Source: Chloroflexota bacterium
GTDB lineage: Bacteria > Chloroflexota > Dormibacteria > Dormibacterales > Dormibacteraceae
Length of the DNA: 64,000 nt
Assembly: GCA_005880915.1 (NCBI GenBank)
Contig: VBIW01000042.1
Coordinates: forward strand, 1-64,000
Direction: 5' to 3'
The notes beneath the pieces are model-generated. The model ran no database searches and was not told where the DNA came from. It worked only from the letters and a program-made list of their open reading frames with translations. A program made the translations under genes and the position numbers. The number at the start of each line of letters is the position of its first letter. Positions within the stretch are counted from its first letter, which is position 1. Of this stretch, positions 4,022 to 16,105 are shown piece after piece.

Positions 4022-5332
4022 TCAGCCTGACCAGCTCGTCCCTGGCACTGGGAGGTACGGCATCGGATCGACGACCTGGTCGTTGAGCCGGAGCTCGAAA
4101 TGCACATGCGGCCCGGTCGACAATCCGCTCGATCCCTCGAGTCCGATCACCTGGCCCCGCACCACTCGATCGCCGGCGGTTGCGTTCGTCTGCAGCAGAT
4201 GTCCATAAAGCGTTGCGATGCCCCCGCCGTGCGCGATCACGACATAGTTGCCGTAGCCGATCGTGCTGTGTCCGACGGCGACGACGAGCCCATCCGCCGC
4301 CGCCATGACCGGTGTACCGAGCGGTGCGGCGATGTCGACGCCGGTGTGAAAGTGCTTGTAGGGACCAAACGGCGGCTCGAGCAAGACTGTCGATGGCCCG
4401 AAGGGCTGGGTGATCTGGAAAGAGGCCATCGGCCACGCTAGCGCCAGGCCGTTGATGGATTTGCCGACCGGCAGCTGACGGTTCACCAGGGCGAGGCCGG
4501 CCCCCACCTGAGCCTGGCTCCATGCGTTCTCGTATGACCGCTGGATCAGGTCTGCCTCTTGAGCCTCCAGAAGCTGGGCGAGGCTGCTGGTCTCGTCGGG
4601 GGTCACGTTCTGAAGCTTGTTCTTGGCGTCCTGGATCGACCTCACCAGGTCGCTCAGCTGGCTGCTGACGTCGCTCTGCCGGTACATGACGTCCTGCAGC
4701 GAGCTGAGGTTGGCATTGAGCAGGTCGAGCGTGCCGTTTTCGCGGTCGAGGTCAGCCTGGCGGGCCTGGCGGTCCGTCTGGAGCTTGGCGAGGTCCGCCT
4801 CGAGCCTGGCCTGCAGCGCGTGCGCGCGCTGTCCCGCGACCACAGCGTCCGCGGTCGCAATCAGCGCCTCGCGCAAGTTTCCGGACCGAGCGATCAGCAG
4901 CCAGAGGGAGTCGGGCTGCCGGTAGATTGCTCGCGACATGACGCTGAGCTGCTCCTTCTCCACGTCGATCCGTGTCTGGGTGTCTGCGATCTGGGCGTCC
5001 AGCCTGGCGACCTGGTCCTCGAGGTTCGCGATCACCGTCTCTTCCTGGGTGACCTCATAGGTGAGGAGCTGCTCCGTAGCTGCGAACTGATCCAGGGTGG
5101 CGGACAGCTTCTGCTCCGCGTCCAGCGCGCGCGCGATGTCGCCGCCGAGGCGGCTCTCCAGCGTTGCGTACGCCGCCTGGTTGGGGTCGACGGCGGTCGC
5201 CGGGCAGGTGACGCGGCTGCCGGAAGCGCTGGCGGCGCTGGGACAAGGCGATGGAGCGGTGGCTGACGCGGTGGAAACCTGGAGCGCCAGGAAAGCTCCC
5301 AGCAAGGCGGAGGCACCGACCGCACGCTTCAA
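4022..5332 (-). CDS. Secreted M23 peptidase with coiled coil (EnvC/PcsB-like)
   Basis: A 436-residue exported protein. Residues 1-25 form a signal peptide (AVGASALLGAFLALQV). Residues about 50-270 are charged and heptad-like, a long coiled coil with a central NLREALIATADAVVAGQRA segment as in EnvC/PcsB-type proteins. The C-terminal LytM domain carries the zinc motifs HTGVDIAAP and HVHFELR, plus YGHLL, so it looks catalytically intact. It should cleave peptidoglycan cross-bridges outside the membrane. The ATG overlaps the stop of the FtsE-FtsX fusion as ATGA (5329-5332), fitting the known pairing in which FtsEX activates such a hydrolase through its coiled coil. The exact bond cut is not visible. 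Confidence 0.88.
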   Translation of the reverse strand: MKRAVGASALLGAFLALQVSTASATAPSPCPSAASASGSRVTCPATAVDPNQAAYATLESRLGGDIARALDAEQKLSATLDQFAATEQLLTYEVTQEETVIANLEDQVARLDAQIADTQTRIDVEKEQLSVMSRAIYRQPDSLWLLIARSGNLREALIATADAVVAGQRAHALQARLEADLAKLQTDRQARQADLDRENGTLDLLNANLSSLQDVMYRQSDVSSQLSDLVRSIQDAKNKLQNVTPDETSSLAQLLEAQEADLIQRSYENAWSQAQVGAGLALVNRQLPVGKSINGLALAWPMASFQITQPFGPSTVLLEPPFGPYKHFHTGVDIAAPLGTPVMAAADGLVVAVGHSTIGYGNYVVIAHGGGIATLYGHLLQTNATAGDRVVRGQVIGLEGSSGLSTGPHVHFELRLNDQVVDPMPYLPVPGTSWSG

Positions 5333-7239
5333 GCTCGAGCCCTGCGGAAGCCGAGGAGTGCCGTCCCGGTGCCCAGGACGAGGCCGGCTGTGATGATCGC
5401 TGCCACGACGTACTGGACCGCCGTGGCGTCGACTCCGGGAAGCACCTGGAGGTAGACCGCCGTCTCGAAGCGAACTGCGAGCACGTACGCGCCCGCAATG
5501 ATCGCCGCCGCCAACGCTCCCGCCAGCGCGCCTGTCATCAGTCCCTCGATGACAAAAGGCCCGCGAAGCATCCAGCCTCGCGCCCCGAGCAGACGGGTCA
5601 CAGCAACCTCTTGCCGGCGGGACGCCGCGATGCCACGCATCGAGTTCGCGATTACCGCATACGCGATGACGGCGAACAGCAGCAGGATTCCGCCGGCGAC
5701 GCCCCCCGCCACGAGCGCCAAATGGCGCAGCCGCGAGTAGGTGTCGGGATCGTATGACGTCGGGTAAGACGGATCGACCGCGGGGTCAGCCTTCACGGAG
5801 GTCGCCACTGCAGCGACCTCGGTCACCAGACGGACCTTCACGTCGAGGCTGGCGGGAAAGGGGTTGGTCGAGCTCAGGCTCGACAGGTTGTCGAGGCCCG
5901 GACGCCTGTTCGCCTCAGCGAGCGCCTGCTCCGGCGTCACGTAGGCGACCGACGCGACGCGCGAATCGCCGGCCAGCTTCGACTTCAGTCTCGCGATCGC
6001 ATCCGGCGTGGCGTCCGCAGCAAGGTAGACCCGGACGATCGAGGCCTGGCTCGCCTGGTCGGCCACGACGCGTTCGACGGCAATCCCGGCCAGGGCAAGC
6101 GTGCCGCACAGCATGAGCAGCAGGGCGATGGTCCCGATGACGGGCGTGGTGAGCCGGGCGTCCCTGCTCCAGCTGCGCAGCCCGTTGATCAGCACGAGGC
6201 GGTAGCCGTTGGCGCCCAAAGCCAGCGCCCGTCGCCACAGCGGCAGGCGAGGCACGCTCGGCGTCTTGTGAGGCCTTTCGCGCGCCGGAATCAGCAGGCG
6301 CCAGAGCGAAGGCCGGGCCGTCGCGCCGTTGCCGTTGACGTGCCCGGTGCCGTTGACGTGCCCGTTGCCGTTGACGTGCCCGTTGCCGTTGACGTGCCCG
6401 TTGCCGTTGACGTGCCTGCTGCTGGTGCCGTGTCCATTGCTATTGACCGCTGCCTTCCGCGATCCGTTGGTCATCACCTTCGCGCTCGGGAGACGCAGGA
6501 TGCGGCTCGCAGGAAAGGTGTGCCGGTGGGTCGCGACGACGACGGTGGTGCCGTTCGCTGCAGCCTCCTCCAGGAGGTGCGTGACCAAAGAGGCGTTCTC
6601 GTCGTCCATCGCCGACAGCGGCTCGTCGGCAAGGAGCACCCGAGGCTTGGTGGCGAGGGCGCGCGCGATCGCCACCCGCTGGCGCTCACCCGCCGACAGC
6701 TGGTGTGGGTACGCGCGCCGGCGGTGCGCAAGCTTGACGGATTCGAGCGCCTCCATGGCACGCCGCTTGATCTCACGGTTTGGGACTTGCGGATCGCACA
6801 CCTGGAGAGCCAGGACGACGTTCTCGAACGCGTTCAGCCGGGGCAGCAGGCGCTGCTCCTGGAAGATGAAGGCGACGTCACGGCGCAGCTTGCCCAGGCC
6901 GCGCCGCCACCAACGGTGCAGCCCGCGACCGCCGACCCAGAGCTCTCCCGCGTTCGGGCGCAGCTGTCCATGGACCAATCGCAGGAGCGTCGTCTTGCCC
7001 GAACCGCTCGGGCCGGTGACCTCGAAAAGCTCGCCCGGGGCGACGCTGAGGTTGACCCCTTTCAGCACCGCGTTGCGGCCGAAGGACTTCGCTACATCGA
7101 CGAGCTTGATCGCCGGCTCTGCCGCGAGCTCGCCGTTGCTTCCAGGGCGGTGCCTGATCGCCCCGATCTTTTGCGCCTGCACGTCGCTTCGGTCTTTGGA
7201 CATGCGCGCGCGGCCAGTTGTCGCTGGTCGGCTACCCAC
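5329..7239 (-). CDS. ftsEX: FtsE-FtsX fusion protein, ABC-type cell division regulator
   Basis: One 636-residue polypeptide holds both halves of FtsEX. Residues 43-252 are the FtsE ATPase: Walker A GPSGSGKTT (76-84), signature LSAGE (181-185, Ala where LSGGE is usual), Walker B VLLADEP (201-207) and H-loop His near 238. Residues about 255-335 are a linker with VNGNGH repeats. Residues 340-636 are FtsX: a first helix about 364-388, an extracytoplasmic domain to about 510 and three final helices around the RRQEVAVTRLLGA loop. FtsEX uses ATP to switch a peptidoglycan hydrolase at the septum; the coupled gene encodes one. The GTG start at 7239 lies 12 bases after TAATCT; ATG 7203 is an alternative. 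Fusion in one frame is directly seen; function is family knowledge. Confidence 0.88.
   Translation of the reverse strand: MGSRPATTGRARMSKDRSDVQAQKIGAIRHRPGSNGELAAEPAIKLVDVAKSFGRNAVLKGVNLSVAPGELFEVTGPSGSGKTTLLRLVHGQLRPNAGELWVGGRGLHRWWRRGLGKLRRDVAFIFQEQRLLPRLNAFENVVLALQVCDPQVPNREIKRRAMEALESVKLAHRRRAYPHQLSAGERQRVAIARALATKPRVLLADEPLSAMDDENASLVTHLLEEAAANGTTVVVATHRHTFPASRILRLPSAKVMTNGSRKAAVNSNGHGTSSRHVNGNGHVNGNGHVNGNGHVNGTGHVNGNGATARPSLWRLLIPARERPHKTPSVPRLPLWRRALALGANGYRLVLINGLRSWSRDARLTTPVIGTIALLLMLCGTLALAGIAVERVVADQASQASIVRVYLAADATPDAIARLKSKLAGDSRVASVAYVTPEQALAEANRRPGLDNLSSLSSTNPFPASLDVKVRLVTEVAAVATSVKADPAVDPSYPTSYDPDTYSRLRHLALVAGGVAGGILLLFAVIAYAVIANSMRGIAASRRQEVAVTRLLGARGWMLRGPFVIEGLMTGALAGALAAAIIAGAYVLAVRFETAVYLQVLPGVDATAVQYVVAAIITAGLVLGTGTALLGFRRARA
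6326..6416 (-). repeat. 18-base minisatellite coding for VNGNGH repeats
   Basis: The core TTGACGTGCC (plus strand) recurs at 6335, 6353, 6371, 6389 and 6407, exactly 18 bases apart. It is in frame and encodes about five Val-Asn-Gly-Asn-Gly-His units in the linker of the FtsE-FtsX fusion. Gain or loss of a unit would keep the frame and change only linker length. One unit carries a variant (NGTGH). Confidence 0.9.
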
Positions 7240-9322: not shown

Positions 9323-11113
9323 ATGAAGGCAAAACGTAATCTGGGCGGAGTGCACGTGACAGCGGGGGTTTCGGACTCCAGCCTTGCCGCGCGCGAGCTC
9401 AACTTCCTGGTTCGTCTGGCCCAGGCGGCCGCGTCCACGCAACGGCCGGACGAGCTCCTCGAGCTGATCATCCGCGAGACGACCTCAGCCATCGGGGTCG
9501 ACGTGTGCTCGCTCTACCTGCTGACCGGCCGCGAGCTGCTGCTTACCGCGACCAACGGCCTGAACGAGAACATGGTCGGCAAGGTGACGATGCGGGTGGG
9601 TGAGGGGATCACCGGGTGGGTGGCCGACACGCGGCGCGCGGCGGTGGTGCCCGACGTGAGCAAGGAGCCTCACTGGAAGTGGGTCCCGGGCCTCGACGAG
9701 GATCGGTTCCACTCCATGGCCTCGGTGCCCATCGAGTCGGGGCCTCGGCTGATCGGCGTGCTCAACGTGCAGAGCACCGAGCGACGGGAGTTCAACTCGG
9801 GCGACATCGACTTCCTGCGGGCCATCGCGGGTCAGGTGGCCGGCATCCTCGAGCGCAGCGAGCTGCAGCGCCGCACCGAGGTGCAGCTCGCCGAGATCAA
9901 GCTCTCGCACGACATCCACGAGCGTTTCACCAAGCTGTCGCTCGACGGCGCCGGGATTCAAAGCATCCTCGAGGTCATCGGCTCGCTTGCGGGCGGGCGG
10001 GCGGCGCTTTACTCCGCAGACGGCTATCGCGTTCGGGGAGTGGGGGAATCGTCCGATGGCATGCCTCCGCGGATCCATTTCCCGGCCACCGCCGGGACCT
10101 CGGCCCGTGAGGTTCGGATCAACTCGGGCCGGCCGCCGCGTCCGCTGGACGTCGTGCCCGTGCGCGCCGGTGCTGACATGCTCGGCTTCCTGGCGGTGGG
10201 CGTCGATGAAAAGTCCGGCGAGTCCGAGGGCCGCCTTCGGTCCCTAGAACATGGATCGACGGTCCTCGCGCTCGAGCTTTCTAAGGAGCGGGCCACCGCA
10301 GAGGTCGAGCGCCGCCTCCGTGGAGACCTGGTCGAGGAGGTTCTCGCCGGGGCGTTGGAGCCCGACGAGGCGGAGCGCGTGGCCCGCCAGGCCGAACGCC
10401 TTGGTCACCGCCTGCCGCAGCGCGCGTGGGTCGTGGTGCTCGAAGCCGACGACGACAAGACCGAGGCCGCGCTCGCGGCGCGGGGGCAGCAGGACCGCCT
10501 CGACGGCGCGCTCAGCGGCCTCGTGCGGTCTCGGCTGCCGGGGGCCCTGACCCTGGTCCGCTCGTCGTCTGCCGTCTTCCTGGTGCCGGACGAGCTGGCC
10601 CCTGACCTTGCATCGGTCGAAAAGCTTGGCGCGCAGGTCATGGCGGCAGCGGCGCCGGTGATGAAGCCAGGCTCGGCGTCGGTCGGCATCGGCAACCTGG
10701 CGAACGGCGTGAGCGAGCTGGCGCGATCGCACCTCGAGGCGCGCCAGGCGCTGCGGCTGACCCGGCGGGCGGGCGGTCGTGCGCGAGTAGCCTCCTATCG
10801 GTCGTTGGGCGCCTTCCGTCTCCTGCTCGAGGTGCAGAGCCCGGACGCGCTGCGTCGCTTCGTGCACGAGCTGCTTGGGCCGCTGCTCGAGTACGCGCAG
10901 TCGCGCGACACGCCGCTCCTCGAGACGCTCGAGGCGCTCTCCACCTCACGCTGGGTGCGGCGGGCCGCGGCGCGCCACCTGGGCATCCACATCAACTCGA
11001 TGACCTACCGCGTGGAGCGCATCGAGGCCCTGACGGGTCTCCAGCTCGATGACCCGGAAACGCGTGTCGCGATCTCGATCGCGCTGCGAGCCCGCGCGAT
11101 GCTGGGGATGTAG
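9323..11113 (+). CDS. GAF-domain transcription regulator with PucR-type C-terminal HTH
   Basis: A 596-residue cytoplasmic regulator. Residues about 30-180 are a GAF sensor domain (VDVCSLYLLTGRELLLTAT, then VGEGITGWVA and MASVPI, ending GVLNVQS). A middle region about 190-480 is CdaR/PucR-like. The C-terminal HTH_30 motif reads RRAAARHLGIHINSMTYRVE. ATG 9323 or GTG 9356 may be the start; GTG 9356 has an SD-like GGCGGAG five bases upstream and would leave the TGTGTTATTGACACC element in a normal promoter position. PucR-type regulators often control nitrogen or purine catabolism. Proximity to glnA, amt and PII, together with the shared palindrome, suggests a nitrogen-related role; the ligand is unknown. 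Confidence 0.8.
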   Translation: MKAKRNLGGVHVTAGVSDSSLAARELNFLVRLAQAAASTQRPDELLELIIRETTSAIGVDVCSLYLLTGRELLLTATNGLNENMVGKVTMRVGEGITGWVADTRRAAVVPDVSKEPHWKWVPGLDEDRFHSMASVPIESGPRLIGVLNVQSTERREFNSGDIDFLRAIAGQVAGILERSELQRRTEVQLAEIKLSHDIHERFTKLSLDGAGIQSILEVIGSLAGGRAALYSADGYRVRGVGESSDGMPPRIHFPATAGTSAREVRINSGRPPRPLDVVPVRAGADMLGFLAVGVDEKSGESEGRLRSLEHGSTVLALELSKERATAEVERRLRGDLVEEVLAGALEPDEAERVARQAERLGHRLPQRAWVVVLEADDDKTEAALAARGQQDRLDGALSGLVRSRLPGALTLVRSSSAVFLVPDELAPDLASVEKLGAQVMAAAAPVMKPGSASVGIGNLANGVSELARSHLEARQALRLTRRAGGRARVASYRSLGAFRLLLEVQSPDALRRFVHELLGPLLEYAQSRDTPLLETLEALSTSRWVRRAAARHLGIHINSMTYRVERIEALTGLQLDDPETRVAISIALRARAMLGM

Positions 11114-11204: not shown

Positions 11205-12404
11205 CTACGGCAGCGCGCTCGGCGAGGCCGTGTAGGGCACGACAGGCCGGTATCCCTCGACGGCTCGGATGGAGAGCAGGATCACCGCGACCACGAGCAA
11301 GACCTCCGAGCCGCTGATCGGGATCAGCTCGCCTGCCGCCTGCGTGAGGAGATGATTCGCCACTGGAACAACGGTGGCCAGAAGCGCGAGAAACAGTCCG
11401 CTGATGAGCGCGAGGCGAATGAGATGTGGTCGTAGGTCCAAGCGCACAGGCACAACCAGATCGTCGATCGCGACGACGAAAAGAGCGATGAGAACGATGA
11501 GTGCCACGTAAATTAGAACGAGGGCAACGTTGGGCCGCCCGTTCGGAAAATAGAATTGCCAGCTGGCATAGATCCACTGGACCTGGGCTGGGTACTTCGC
11601 GTAATAGGAGCCGGCCGCGATCGTCGGCAGAGCCAGAACAGTCGCTGCGATCTGAGGCGGCCGGAGCACTCCAGGGATGAGGAACCGAATCTCGGTCGTG
11701 CCGGTGCGCTGCACTGCCAAGACAATTGCCACCGAGCCAACGGTCAGAGCGAGAGTTACGGCTGCCCATATTGCGATCGGTTTGTACAGCGCGTCGAGCG
11801 AAGGCACCGCGGCGAAGTAGCCGGCCAGCCGATGCACCTCTGTGGCGAGCGGGCCGAGCGCGTATAGGATTACCGCGCCGCAGCCGAAACCCAGCCCGAA
11901 CTCGTCGAGCGCGTCGGCCAGGAGGATCATCAGCGCGGTGCCGCCCGACAGCGCGAGACAGACCGCCAGCCGGGCTGACCAGTCCATCGAACCGAAGACC
12001 GGCGGGCTGCCGTATTGGTACAGGACCGTGAATCCATACGCCTGGCCCATTGCGAGACCAAGGGCGAGAACCCGCGTCCACCGCGCCAGCGTGTCGCGTC
12101 CGCGGCGGTTGCGAGCCATGTTGCGGATGCGAGCTGAGACAGCGGGGATCAGGCTCATGAGGATGAGAGCTTCGAGATATGGCCCGATACCTTCATACCC
12201 GACACTCCAGGCGGCGAACGGAATGCTGTTCGGTCCGATCGCGGCGAAGAAGCCAGGGCCATTGCCCAGCTGGTAAAGCTCCGTGGTGATGAACCTCGGA
12301 GTCACATCGGTGACAGGAATCTGCTCGAGGAGACGCCAGATGACGAGGCAGACCACGGTGACCACCAGCGCCCTCTTATCGGCCCGCCACCACAGCCGCA
12401 TCAC
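11205..12404 (-). CDS. Divergent SecY-like membrane protein
   Basis: A 399-residue protein with about ten hydrophobic helices that follow SecY in order. Recognisable pieces: EGIGPYLEALIL (71-82, compare the SecY GIMPYI-type helix 2 region), RWTRVLALGLAMGQAYG (108-124, matching the SecY segment after the first cytosolic loop), GTALMILLADALDEFGLG (155-172, like GTxFLMWLGExITExGIG), IPGVLRPPQIAATVLALP (243-260, like GVIPVIFASS) and a final GSEVLLVVAVILLSIRAVEG (365-384). The loops between helices 6/7 and 8/9, which bind SecA and ribosomes in SecY, are almost absent. It is therefore unlikely to be the housekeeping translocase. It follows the glnA terminator by only about 14 bases, so expression may depend on read-through. 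Function unknown. Confidence 0.65.
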   Translation of the reverse strand: MMRLWWRADKRALVVTVVCLVIWRLLEQIPVTDVTPRFITTELYQLGNGPGFFAAIGPNSIPFAAWSVGYEGIGPYLEALILMSLIPAVSARIRNMARNRRGRDTLARWTRVLALGLAMGQAYGFTVLYQYGSPPVFGSMDWSARLAVCLALSGGTALMILLADALDEFGLGFGCGAVILYALGPLATEVHRLAGYFAAVPSLDALYKPIAIWAAVTLALTVGSVAIVLAVQRTGTTEIRFLIPGVLRPPQIAATVLALPTIAAGSYYAKYPAQVQWIYASWQFYFPNGRPNVALVLIYVALIVLIALFVVAIDDLVVPVRLDLRPHLIRLALISGLFLALLATVVPVANHLLTQAAGELIPISGSEVLLVVAVILLSIRAVEGYRPVVPYTASPSALP

Positions 12405-12415
12405 GGTGATTGAAG

Positions 12416-12456
12416 TCTAAAAACAAGAAAGGGCCCCGGCTTGCGCCGAGGCCCTT
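12416..12456 (-). terminator. Intrinsic terminator of glnA
   Basis: On the minus strand a 12-bp stem (12445-12456 pairing with 12429-12440, one mismatch, 4-base loop) is followed by a T-rich run, TTTCTTGTTTTTAGA. It begins 12 bases after the glnA stop. The next gene, SecY-like, starts about 14 bases beyond. Confidence 0.9.
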
Positions 12457-12468
12457 GGAGCAGGTCGG

Positions 12469-13914
12469 TTAGACGTCCGAGTAGAGCATGAACTCCCACG
12501 GGTGTGGCCGGAGGGCGACGGCGTCGACCTCCTTCTTGCGCTTGTAGTCGATCCAGGTGTCGATCACGTCTTTTGTGAAGACGCCACCCTCGAGCAAGAA
12601 CGTGTGGTCCTTCTCCAGCGCGTCCAGCGACTCGGCCAGCGAGCCGGGCACTGACTTGATCTTCGCCTTTTCCTCACCCTCGAGCTCATAGATGTCCTTG
12701 TCTACCGGTTCTGGCGGCAGGATCTTGTGCTTGATGCCGTCGAGACCTGCCATAAGGCACGCGGAGAACGCGAGGTATGGGTTCGCGGCCGGGTCCGGCG
12801 AGCGGAACTCGACCCGCTTTGTCTTCGGGTTGGTGGAGTACATCGGGATGCGCACGCACGCCGAGCGGTTGCGCTTCGAGTAAACGAGGTTGATCGGCGC
12901 CTCGTAGCCCGGCACGAGCCGGCGGTACGAGTTGGTCGTGGGCGCGCAGATCGCGAGCAGCGCGGGTGCGTGCTTCAACAGACCGCCGATGTAGTAGATG
13001 GCCGTCTGGCTCAGGCCCGCGTAGCCCTTCGGGTCGGCCATCAGGTTCTCGCCATCCTTCCAGAGGCTCTGGTGCACGTGCATCCCGGAGCCGTTGTCCT
13101 GGAACAGGGGCTTGGGCATGAAGGTCGCGACGTAGCCGTGCTGGGCCGCGATGTTCTTGATCACGTACTTGAAGACCATCATCTTGTCGCCCATCTTGGT
13201 CAGCGAGTCGAACCGCATGTCGATCTCAGCCTGGCCGGCGGTTCCGACCTCGTGGTGCTGGACCTCGACGCGGACACCCGCCTCGATGAGCTTGAGCATG
13301 ATCTCGGATCGGAGGTCCTGGAGCTTGTCGGTCGGCGGCACTGGGAAATAACCCTCCTTGTGCCGTGGCCGGAACGCCATGTTCGGCTCGGAGTTCTTGC
13401 CCGAGTTCCAGATGCCTTCGTCGGAGTCTATGAAGTAGTAGCCGCTGTGGGCGTTCTGGTCGAAGCGAAGGGAGTTGAAGAGGTAGAACTCCGCCTCAGG
13501 CCCCCAGTAGCTCACGTCGGCGATGCCGGTGCGGCGCAGGTGCTCCTCAGCTTTCTTGGCGATAAAGCGGGCGTCGCGCGAGTAGGGCTCGCGGCTGATC
13601 GGGTCGATGATGTCGCAGATCAGAAACAGCGTCTTGTGCGACAGGACCGGATCAATGGTCGCCGAATCTGGGTCGGGGATGAGGAGCATGTCGCTCTCAT
13701 TGATGGCCTGGAAGCCTCGAATGCTCGAGCCGTCGAAGCCCAGGCCTTCCTTGAAGCTGTCGACGTCCAGCTCTGTAAGCGGAAGGCTGAAGTGCTGCCA
13801 GGTGCCTGGAAGGTCGATGAACCGGACGTCGACGACCTCGACGCCCTCAGCCTTTGCACGCTCCAGGACCTCGCGCGGGCTGGTCTTGCTACCCGATTTT
13901 GTCTCTACGGCCAT
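12469..13914 (-). CDS. glnA: Glutamine synthetase, type I
   Basis: A 481-residue type I glutamine synthetase that makes glutamine from glutamate, ammonium and ATP. Motifs: [11 protein letters not shown] (substrate/Mg region), GPEAEFYLF (metal-binding Glu), [14 protein letters not shown], the HVHQSLW ATP/metal segment, the [13 protein letters not shown] loop and [25 protein letters not shown] places a Tyr where the adenylylated Tyr of enteric GSI lies, so adenylylation is possible but unproven. The start at ATG 13914 is supported by GGAGGG six bases upstream; an upstream in-frame extension lacks such a site. It is divergent from amt, with a palindrome in between, and has its own terminator. 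Confidence 0.97.
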
Positions 13915-14021
13915 GAACACCCTCCACGAATACGCATTATTTGACGGGCCCCAAGGCGATCGTAGGTAGCCGGCGACTGAACAATCAGGTGAGACCATCA
14001 CAAACAAACCGCCTCGTTTTC

Positions 14022-14036
14022 TGTGTCATTGACACA
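14022..14036. promoter_or_regulatory. Perfect palindrome between glnA and amt, candidate nitrogen operator
   Basis: TGTGTCATTGACACA is a perfect inverted repeat with 7-bp arms around one central base. It lies 108 bases before the glnA start and 169 before the amt start. TTGACA inside it could be the amt -35. A 13/15 match lies before the GAF/PucR gene (9299-9313). It is shorter than, and different from, GlnR/TnrA sites (TGTNA-N7-TNACA). Confidence 0.6.
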
Positions 14037-14204
14037 AAAATCGAGGTTCTAGCAGGTAACAGGGATGGTGTGGACCGCACCAGGCGGCGCGTCCCAATTT
14101 GTCAGGGCCGCACGTGTTTGCGCCCAAACGGGCGCCCCTACGCTGGCCCAGTCAAGCGGTGCGGTGGACTGCCGCTCCCGGGGAAACACAACGGAGGTGC
14201 GTAC

Positions 14205-15707
14205 TTGTCTGCAGCCATGGATTTTCGGAAAGCTATTTTCAGACGCCGACGCGTGTTCGGCATTTCCGCCGCGATCGCCTTGCTCGCCGCGGTGGTGCCG
14301 ATAGCGGTTTTTGCAGACGACACCACCGCTACGTCGGCGGCCGGAGTAGCCGCGGATACGGTCTGGGTGATCGTAGCCGCGTGTTTCGTCATGTTCATGC
14401 AGGCGGGCTTCGCAATGCTCGAGGTCGGCTTCAGCCGCATGAAGAACGTCGGCACAGTGGTGGCGAAGGTCATCACCAATCTCAGCGTGAGCTCGATCGC
14501 CTACTGGGGCGTTGGCTTCGGCCTGGCGTTCGGCGCGGGCGGCGCGTTTGCCTTTATCGGAGGCAGCGGCTTCTTTCCGACGTTCAGCCCCGGTTCGGCG
14601 ATGAACCTGCCGGCGATCGCCGGCAGCACAGCACCTGCCGCGGCGAAGTGGTTCTTTGAATTCGTCTTCTGCGCCGTGTCGCTGGCGATCGTCTGGGGGA
14701 CGATGCTCGAGCGCACGAAGTTCATCGTCTACATCCTGTTCGGAGTACCGTTCGCAGCCTTCATCTATCCACTCATCAGCCACCAGCTGTTTGGTGGCGG
14801 GTATCTCATGGCGACACTCGGCTCGCAGGACTTCGCGGGGTCAACCGTCGTACACCTGACCGGCGCGACAGCCGGGTTGGCCGGCTTGCTCCTGCTGGGC
14901 GCCCGAATCGGCAAATACGAGAAGGGGCGCTCCAATGCAATTCCTGGACACAACATGCCGCTGGCGCAGCTCGGCGTGCTGATCCTCTGGTTCGGGTGGT
15001 TCGGCTTCAACCCTGGTTCGACCCTCAACGCGACGAACCTCCACTTCGCGGACGTTGTCGTGGTCACAAACCTCGCCGCGGCGGGCGGGGCAGTGGCCGC
15101 TTTGATCACCGTCTATCTGATCACCAGAACGATGGACGTCGGAATGATCGGCAACGGCGCCATCGCGGCGCTGGTCGCCATCACCGCGCCGTCAGGCTAC
15201 GTCGAGCCATGGGCCGGCATAGTCATCGGCGCCGTGGCAGGTGTGATTGTCGTGGTCGGAGTTCTCGCGCTCGACAAGGTGCTCGATGACCCGGTGGGTG
15301 CTCTTCCGGCGCACGGAATGGCCGGAATCTGGGGCACTCTCAGCTGCGGCCTGTTCACGACTCCGGCACTCGCGAAGTTCAACGGCGTCGGCCAGGGCGG
15401 CTTGTTCTACACGGGCAGCTTCCACCAGCTAGGCGCCCAGGCGATCGCGGTCGGTGCTTCGTTTGTCACGGTCTTCGTTCTGAGTTATGGGCTCTTCTGG
15501 ATCATCAAGAAGACGGTTGGACTTCGGGTGTCGCCAGCCGAGGAGATGGAAGGCTTGGACATCAGCGAACACGGCATGTGGGGGTATCCCGAGTCGTTTA
15601 TGCCGGTGCCCGGCGGGGTCTATCGCCCAGCGGACACTCCGACGGTGAACCCGCATCCCAACCATGAGCCTGTGCCCGCCAAGCACAAGGAGGTGTCGCA
15701 CGCATGA
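14205..15707 (+). CDS. amt: Ammonium transporter (Amt/MEP/Rh family)
   Basis: A 500-residue Amt protein of about eleven helices. Residues about 1-38 form a signal-like N-terminus (ISAAIALLAAVVPIAVFA). Family motifs follow: MFMQAGFAMLEVGFSRMKN, then DFAGSTVVHLTGATAGLAGL with a pore-type His, PLAQLGVLILWFGWFGFNPG and VGALPAHGMAGIWGTL with the second pore-type His. It conducts ammonium/ammonia inward. TTG 14205 was chosen because GGAGGT lies six bases upstream; ATG 14217 would be nineteen bases from that site. Its stop overlaps the PII start (ATGA at 15704), the standard amt-glnK pairing. A leader of up to about 170 bases includes a CGCCC/GGGCG hairpin (14121-14134). Confidence 0.95.
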   Translation: MSAAMDFRKAIFRRRRVFGISAAIALLAAVVPIAVFADDTTATSAAGVAADTVWVIVAACFVMFMQAGFAMLEVGFSRMKNVGTVVAKVITNLSVSSIAYWGVGFGLAFGAGGAFAFIGGSGFFPTFSPGSAMNLPAIAGSTAPAAAKWFFEFVFCAVSLAIVWGTMLERTKFIVYILFGVPFAAFIYPLISHQLFGGGYLMATLGSQDFAGSTVVHLTGATAGLAGLLLLGARIGKYEKGRSNAIPGHNMPLAQLGVLILWFGWFGFNPGSTLNATNLHFADVVVVTNLAAAGGAVAALITVYLITRTMDVGMIGNGAIAALVAITAPSGYVEPWAGIVIGAVAGVIVVVGVLALDKVLDDPVGALPAHGMAGIWGTLSCGLFTTPALAKFNGVGQGGLFYTGSFHQLGAQAIAVGASFVTVFVLSYGLFWIIKKTVGLRVSPAEEMEGLDISEHGMWGYPESFMPVPGGVYRPADTPTVNPHPNHEPVPAKHKEVSHA

Positions 15708-16105
15708 CGGCGAATGGAAGCGGAAGTGACCTGAAGATGGTCGTCGCGATCATCCGCCACGAACGGCTGCAGGAGGTCCAGGACGTTCTGGACGAGTGCG
15801 GCGTGTCTGGGGTCACTGTGACCGAGGTCAAGGGGTGCGGCGCCCAGCGCGGCTATACCGAGAAATACCGTGGCGCCTCCGTCCATATATCACTTCGACC
15901 GCGACTGAAAGTTGAGGCGGTCATGAAGTCAGAGATCGTCACCACGGTGGTCGACAAGCTTGCGGTGGCCGGGCGGACCGGGAATGGCGAGGTTGGCGAC
16001 GGAAAGATATTCGTGATCGGAGTCGAGGACGCCGTTCGCATTCGCACAGGCGAGCACGGCCCCGAGACGGTCCAACACGCCGAACGCGCCATGTGGGGAC
16101 ACTAG
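15704..16105 (+). CDS. glnK: PII nitrogen regulatory protein (GlnK-type), lacking the uridylylation tyrosine
   Basis: A 133-residue PII protein, expected to be a trimer that binds ATP/ADP and 2-oxoglutarate and plugs the Amt trimer. The conserved framework is intact: VTVTEVKGCG, GYTEKYRGAS, the C-terminal GDGKIFVIGVEDAVRIRTGE. In the T-loop the Tyr equivalent to E. coli Tyr46 is present (Tyr55), but the position of the uridylylated Tyr51 is Val60, so classical uridylylation cannot occur there. The N-terminus has a 10-residue extension and the C-terminus about 14 residues beyond RIRTGE. Coupling to amt supports GlnK over GlnB naming. Confidence 0.93.
   Translation: MTANGSGSDLKMVVAIIRHERLQEVQDVLDECGVSGVTVTEVKGCGAQRGYTEKYRGASVHISLRPRLKVEAVMKSEIVTTVVDKLAVAGRTGNGEVGDGKIFVIGVEDAVRIRTGEHGPETVQHAERAMWGH

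Follow-up and report, generated by a model that had tools for sequence, protein, structure and literature searches.

A SecY paralog with shortened cytosolic loops beside glnA in a Chloroflexota bacterium

What is a gene that resembles secY doing beside glnA? We analyzed a 64,000-nucleotide stretch of a Chloroflexota genome (hereafter, the window), in which a reading frame at 11205..12404 on the reverse strand encodes a protein of 399 amino acids, from a GTG start at 12404 (or an ATG at 12401) to a TAG stop at 11205. The original prediction was of a degenerate SecY-like protein that has a new job, possibly tied to nitrogen supply. We considered the call in light of Pfam, structure prediction with fold searches, and dN/dS. 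Elsewhere in the window, FtsE and FtsX are fused in a frame of 636 amino acids (5329-7239, reverse strand), with a repetitive NGHVNG linker and with ABC_tran, FtsX_ECD, and FtsX domains.

First, the protein does belong with SecY. In a Pfam search, SecY (PF00344) was the only family that matched (E = 4e-18, 66.2 bits; the gathering score is 32.2 bits). The TIGR00967 model for SecY gave 71.8 bits, which is under its equivalog cutoff of 253.6. These two matches indicate a likeness to SecY far beyond chance. The PF00344 cutoff is also passed by five of the six other orthologs; the sixth, a copy from genome G009 with a deletion, scores 28.3 bits, below the cutoff. A profile built from all seven orthologs matched SecYs in the PDB (from E. 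coli, Thermus, and others), with E values down to 2e-19. Judged by its sequence, then, the frame encodes a genuine SecY-family protein, as had been recognized.

Second, the housekeeping secY is a different gene. A canonical copy (444 amino acids, 332 bits) is found in this genome on a separate contig (C69:17049-18275), between genes that read as rplO and adk, while the window's gene adjoins glnA instead. The glnA-side gene is a paralog. Genome-wide, we detected a single SecA, a single SecE, and a single YidC, all on contigs other than the paralog's, which agrees with the original statement that no SecA, SecE, or accessory Sec gene lies nearby; no second SecA was detected in the genome. Nor is the paralog an accessory SecY2: the SecY2 models gave 21.3 bits for it and 28.1 bits for the best ortholog, against cutoffs of 250-353, and no SecA2 was detected. 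Its predicted distinctness from SecA2/SecY2 systems therefore holds. Thus, the paralog belongs to the SecY superfamily but is neither a housekeeping SecY nor a SecY2. A broader search of genome contigs returned just one canonical SecY, and a search of viral contigs returned none. Our literature searches, whose coverage left out most subscription journals, found no description of a SecY paralog without these loops. We also considered contamination (8.6% for this bin), but the flanking genes are 82-95% identical to those of relatives in the genus and family and are in the same order, so we rejected it.

In SecY, the universal protein-export channel, the cytosolic loops are considered the interface to its engines; these docking loops also bind ribosomes. 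The loops between helices 6 and 7 and between helices 8 and 9 had been described as nearly gone, and both are indeed shortened. Loop 6/7 (C4) is a stub of 12 residues (residues 233-244; 11673..11708, reverse strand); it spans 12-23 residues in the seven paralogs, as compared to 30-33 in 48 canonical SecYs. Loop 8/9 (C5; residues 310-329; 11418..11477, reverse strand) has 20 residues in all seven paralogs versus 40 in all 48 canonical SecYs, and its IPGxRPGxxT motif is deleted. The C-terminal tail (residues 386-399; 11208..11249, reverse strand) has been replaced, with loss of the canonical RxYxGFI. There is also a one-residue insertion at the start of TM7, R248 (codon at 11661..11663, reverse strand; GVLRPP versus GVI-P); the seven orthologs all have this arginine, and none of the 48 canonical SecYs has any residue at that point.

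The rest of the protein has changed unevenly. Of 89 sites that hardly vary among canonical SecYs, 30 are retained in the paralogs (mostly glycines, prolines, and residues of the hydrophobic core), 11 are retained in part, 38 are replaced, and 10 are deleted, and 8 of the 10 deleted positions belong to the IPGxRPG of loop 8/9. When the paralogs are compared with canonical SecY from their own family, identity peaks in TM7 (0.52), TM3 (0.51), and TM2 (0.41), and little of it is left in TM1 (0.29), TM10 (0.22), TM5 (0.15), and the tail (0.02); for comparison, canonical SecYs across the phylum show 0.60 in TM1, 0.63 in TM10, and 0.49 in TM5. Conservation is also low (0.20) in TM8, another of the gate helices. 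About 36 positions, including R248, W23, W213, and H327, do not vary among the six full-length paralogs, yet have the same residue in under 10% of canonical sequences. The final motif, GSEVLLVV, is the counterpart of the canonical GGTAILIVV, and we take its change from isoleucine to leucine to be at a pore-ring position. Another position that, if we have the E. coli numbering right, is a hydrophobic pore-ring site in canonical SecYs is glutamine in four of five orthologs from the genus.

The predicted structure is also SecY-like. An AF2 model of the paralog (pLDDT 78, pTM 0.80), made from 55 sequences that included canonical SecYs, has ten long helices, and turns of just four residues connect TM6 to TM7 and TM8 to TM9. 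With this model, all 29 Foldseek matches down to E = 0.064 were SecY, Sec61, or Ssh1. Compared with solved structures, it shows the ten-helix topology of SecY; SecY and Sec61 proteins also head the VIA-align ranking, in which the best match was 8ya3_Y (Z = 30.6, rmsd 3.0 over 351 residues). When AF2 was given only the seven paralogs, pLDDT was 40. Because canonical SecYs were in the alignment, the model supports the ten-helix SecY fold but is not an independent proof of it.

If the paralog has shed so much, is it still a functional gene? Among 61 near genomes, we found orthologs in five from the same genus (G000, G007, G008, G009, and G016) and in two from another genus of the family (G026 and G035); G006 and G013 have C-terminal fragments of the gene where a contig ends. 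When 110 genomes from the class and 400 from the phylum were scanned, the glnA-linked type was found in no other family. (Four genomes from one other family of the phylum, G219, G296, G342, and G401, each have two full-length SecY-like open frames of 449-604 amino acids.) Identity to the window's copy is 40-62% across the orthologs, as against 82-95% for the glnA and regulator genes on either side. Six are full length with intact frames. In the seventh, from G009 (L037:1943-3055), about 33 residues around TM5 are missing in frame; this could be real or an assembly error, and a sequencing error is possible because the canonical secY of that genome is also frame-broken (contig C42).

By the Nei-Gojobori method, dN/dS is 0.22-0.33 among the four closest copies in the genus (the window, G007, G008, and G016) and 0.29 between the two copies from the other genus, as compared to 0.02-0.14 for glnA and the regulator. 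For distant pairs it reaches 0.79, with synonymous sites near saturation, but it is below 1 in every pair, and frames are intact at synonymous distances near or above 1. We therefore rejected a pseudogene. In the same pairs, the dN of the paralog exceeds that of the genes on either side by a factor of about 3-20. The values for close pairs imply that selection is relaxed but present: the paralog is constrained, though much less than its neighbors. The original description of the protein as degenerate needs correcting in that relatives show a conserved gene, one that has not merely degenerated. On a tree of the regulator, the carriers are scattered, so that 5-6 changes between presence and absence are needed, and such repeated loss means that the paralog is dispensable.

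In a tree of SecY proteins, the paralogs group together in a single clade, which branches from within the canonical SecYs of their own family. The gene is best explained as a secY copy that arose by duplication and was then remodelled. In another family, there is a second SecY-like gene in two genomes, G038 and G102 (L042:7580-8761 and L199:10083-11465); the two copies are 71% identical to each other and lie beside pgpH, ybeY, and dgkA. In the G038 copy, too, the loop 8/9 motif and the tail are missing and TM7 has an extra residue at the position of the insertion; this copy scores 102 bits with a profile of the paralogs versus 72 bits with a canonical profile. The tree groups this pair with the window's type (support 99/98), and descent from their own family's SecY was rejected (p-AU 0.002), with the caveat of long branches. 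These genes are probably a second branch of the loop-less SecY; we say only probably because long branches could mimic the grouping. The loss of the same loop and tail in the two putative branches would be either shared or convergent. A neighbor of 750 amino acids in this second family, which we considered as a type III glutamine synthetase, is instead a 7TMR-HD protein.

What does the paralog do? Since the docking loops are lost, purifying selection is kept, and the protein is not SecY2, a changed job, as originally proposed, is likely. Most likely, it is a SecY derivative that acts without docking to SecA or ribosomes, as an insertase or chaperone or as an accessory to Sec; we infer its insertion activity, partners, and substrates. 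Without the docking platform, canonical engagement by SecA or ribosomes is not expected, and given that the core is retained along with gate helices 2, 3, and 7, the simplest use would be as an engine-free insertase or chaperone, or else as an accessory protomer beside SecYEG. Our leading reading, to which we give a probability of roughly 0.4, is a membrane insertase or chaperone that works without SecA or direct ribosome docking. A duplicated secY would have kept its ten-helix core, best in the lateral-gate helices, and shed loops 6/7 and 8/9 and the C-terminal tail. Short or weakly hydrophobic segments might then enter and exit via the lateral gate with no engine, and the paralog perhaps borrows the cell's only SecE or works beside SecYEG or YidC. 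The homology to SecY and the predicted fold favor this reading, as do the shortened loops in every ortholog, the retained core sites, the low dN/dS in close pairs, the paralog-specific invariant positions, the single SecA, SecE, and YidC, and the same losses in the probable second branch. On the other hand, the gene is dispensable and evolves quickly, G009 lacks residues near TM5, TM8 is poorly conserved, the presumed pore ring often has glutamine, and the modelled fold is not independent. A broader form of the claim, that a SecY lineage without SecA or ribosome docking forms an autonomous, gate-driven insertase or chaperone, kept by two or more families within a single bacterial class and acting as a natural SecY in the manner of YidC, is doubtful.

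A rival reading is a subunit that conducts no substrate itself, such as a second protomer or a regulator for SecYEG, SecE, or YidC. Just one SecE was detected in the genome, the docking loops and tail are lost, and the invariant W23, W213, and H327 could form an interface. Helices 1, 5, 6, and 10, which line the SecE side in SecYEG structures, are strongly diverged, however, and we rate an accessory subunit as unlikely. Just as unlikely, in our judgment, is a dispensable duplicate under weak selection that is en route to loss and has little specific function. That would account for the scattered presence of the gene, its fast evolution, the deletion in G009, and the many relatives in which the site is empty; in the nearest relative, G012 (98% identity in the regulator), what follows the regulator does not match the paralog as far as the contig runs. 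But a decaying gene would not be expected to have 36 lineage-specific invariant positions, dN/dS is below 1 in all pairs, frames are intact despite large synonymous distances, and the same loops are lost in the probable second branch. The retained core and gate would fit a second functional translocon that SecA or ribosomes still serve via other contacts, but this is quite improbable: the loop 8/9 motif, loop 6/7, and the tail are gone in all orthologs, and no second SecA was detected.

This leaves the neighborhood. The upstream neighbor, rather than a demonstrated partner, is glnA, which encodes a type I glutamine synthetase (12469..14007, reverse strand; TIGR00653, 668 bits); it is divergent from amt and a P-II gene (12469-16105), in an ordinary nitrogen assimilation cluster. 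Downstream and convergent is a regulator with GAF and PucR-type HTH domains (9323..11113, forward strand), which flanks the site in carriers and noncarriers alike. Between glnA and the paralog there is a terminator for glnA, a G+C-rich hairpin followed by a T run (12429..12456, reverse strand), and then a -10-like box, TAGACT (12414..12419, reverse strand), 9 bases before the GTG. TTAGACT is found 8-9 bases ahead of the start codon in all five complete orthologs from the genus and is absent from the empty sites that we compared. The comparison suggests that the box acts as a promoter, so the paralog probably has its own promoter and a leaderless transcript. In G035, the spacer between glnA and the paralog (L035:8844-9207) is about 350 bp and is filled with repeated GGGGACGGCCGGAGT units.

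Proximity to glnA is conserved in carriers: all five complete orthologs from the genus and both from the other genus are directly downstream of glnA, and the regulator adjoins the paralog in every carrier, with glnA on the opposite side where the contig is long enough. A partnership is not supported, however. In about 20 relatives, glnA lies beside the same regulator and the gap is empty (about 50-200 bp, as in G001, G004, G011, and G029) or holds other genes, such as one that reads as a methyltransferase or is aminotransferase-like. The gap is a variable spot with differing cargo genes or none (L093, L095, L096, L098, L099, and L101). Carriers share the glnA neighborhood because the gene occupies one chromosomal site, and the proximity looks positional or incidental. 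The originally suggested tie to nitrogen supply, here taken as a channel that functions together with glnA, amt, and P-II, is the least credible reading, given the empty or otherwise filled sites, the terminator with a separate -10-like box, and the probable second branch beside dgkA.

How does the paralog compare to known systems? With canonical SecY (TIGR00967; PF00344), it shares the ten-helix fold, the motifs of TM2-TM3 and TM7, the position of the plug region, and the membrane core. It differs in that loops 6/7 and 8/9 are short, the tail is replaced, and TM7 has the one-residue insertion, and also in its patchy presence and its location outside the ribosomal protein operon; across the orthologs, identity to the canonical copy of the same genome is 24-32%. 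Genomes of streptococci and staphylococci also have a second, diverged SecY, the accessory SecY2 (TIGR02920, PRK12417). SecY2 activates SecA2 (PMC5076819), whereas the paralog is without docking loops. Yeast Ssh1, a paralog of Sec61, is likewise a paralogous translocon channel of the same fold (Foldseek rank 29), but Ssh1 docks on ribosomes (2ww9 is a complex with the ribosome), and the window's protein lacks the docking loops. The window's gene also shows that not all SecY paralogs are of the SecA2/SecY2 type; the others are likely to be annotated plainly as SecY. With the YidC/Oxa1 insertases, the paralog would share its proposed mode of working, insertion without SecA. Unlike them, it has all ten helices of the SecY fold; a separate YidC is encoded in the genome, and the Pfam search of the paralog gave no match to 60KD_IMP, only SecY. 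SecY and YidC have been proposed to share an ancestor (PMC8675477), and a loop-less SecY bears on this proposal. A natural SecY without cytosolic loops that is under selection would also test what a bare ten-helix core is able to do, and it offers a natural construct for structural work.
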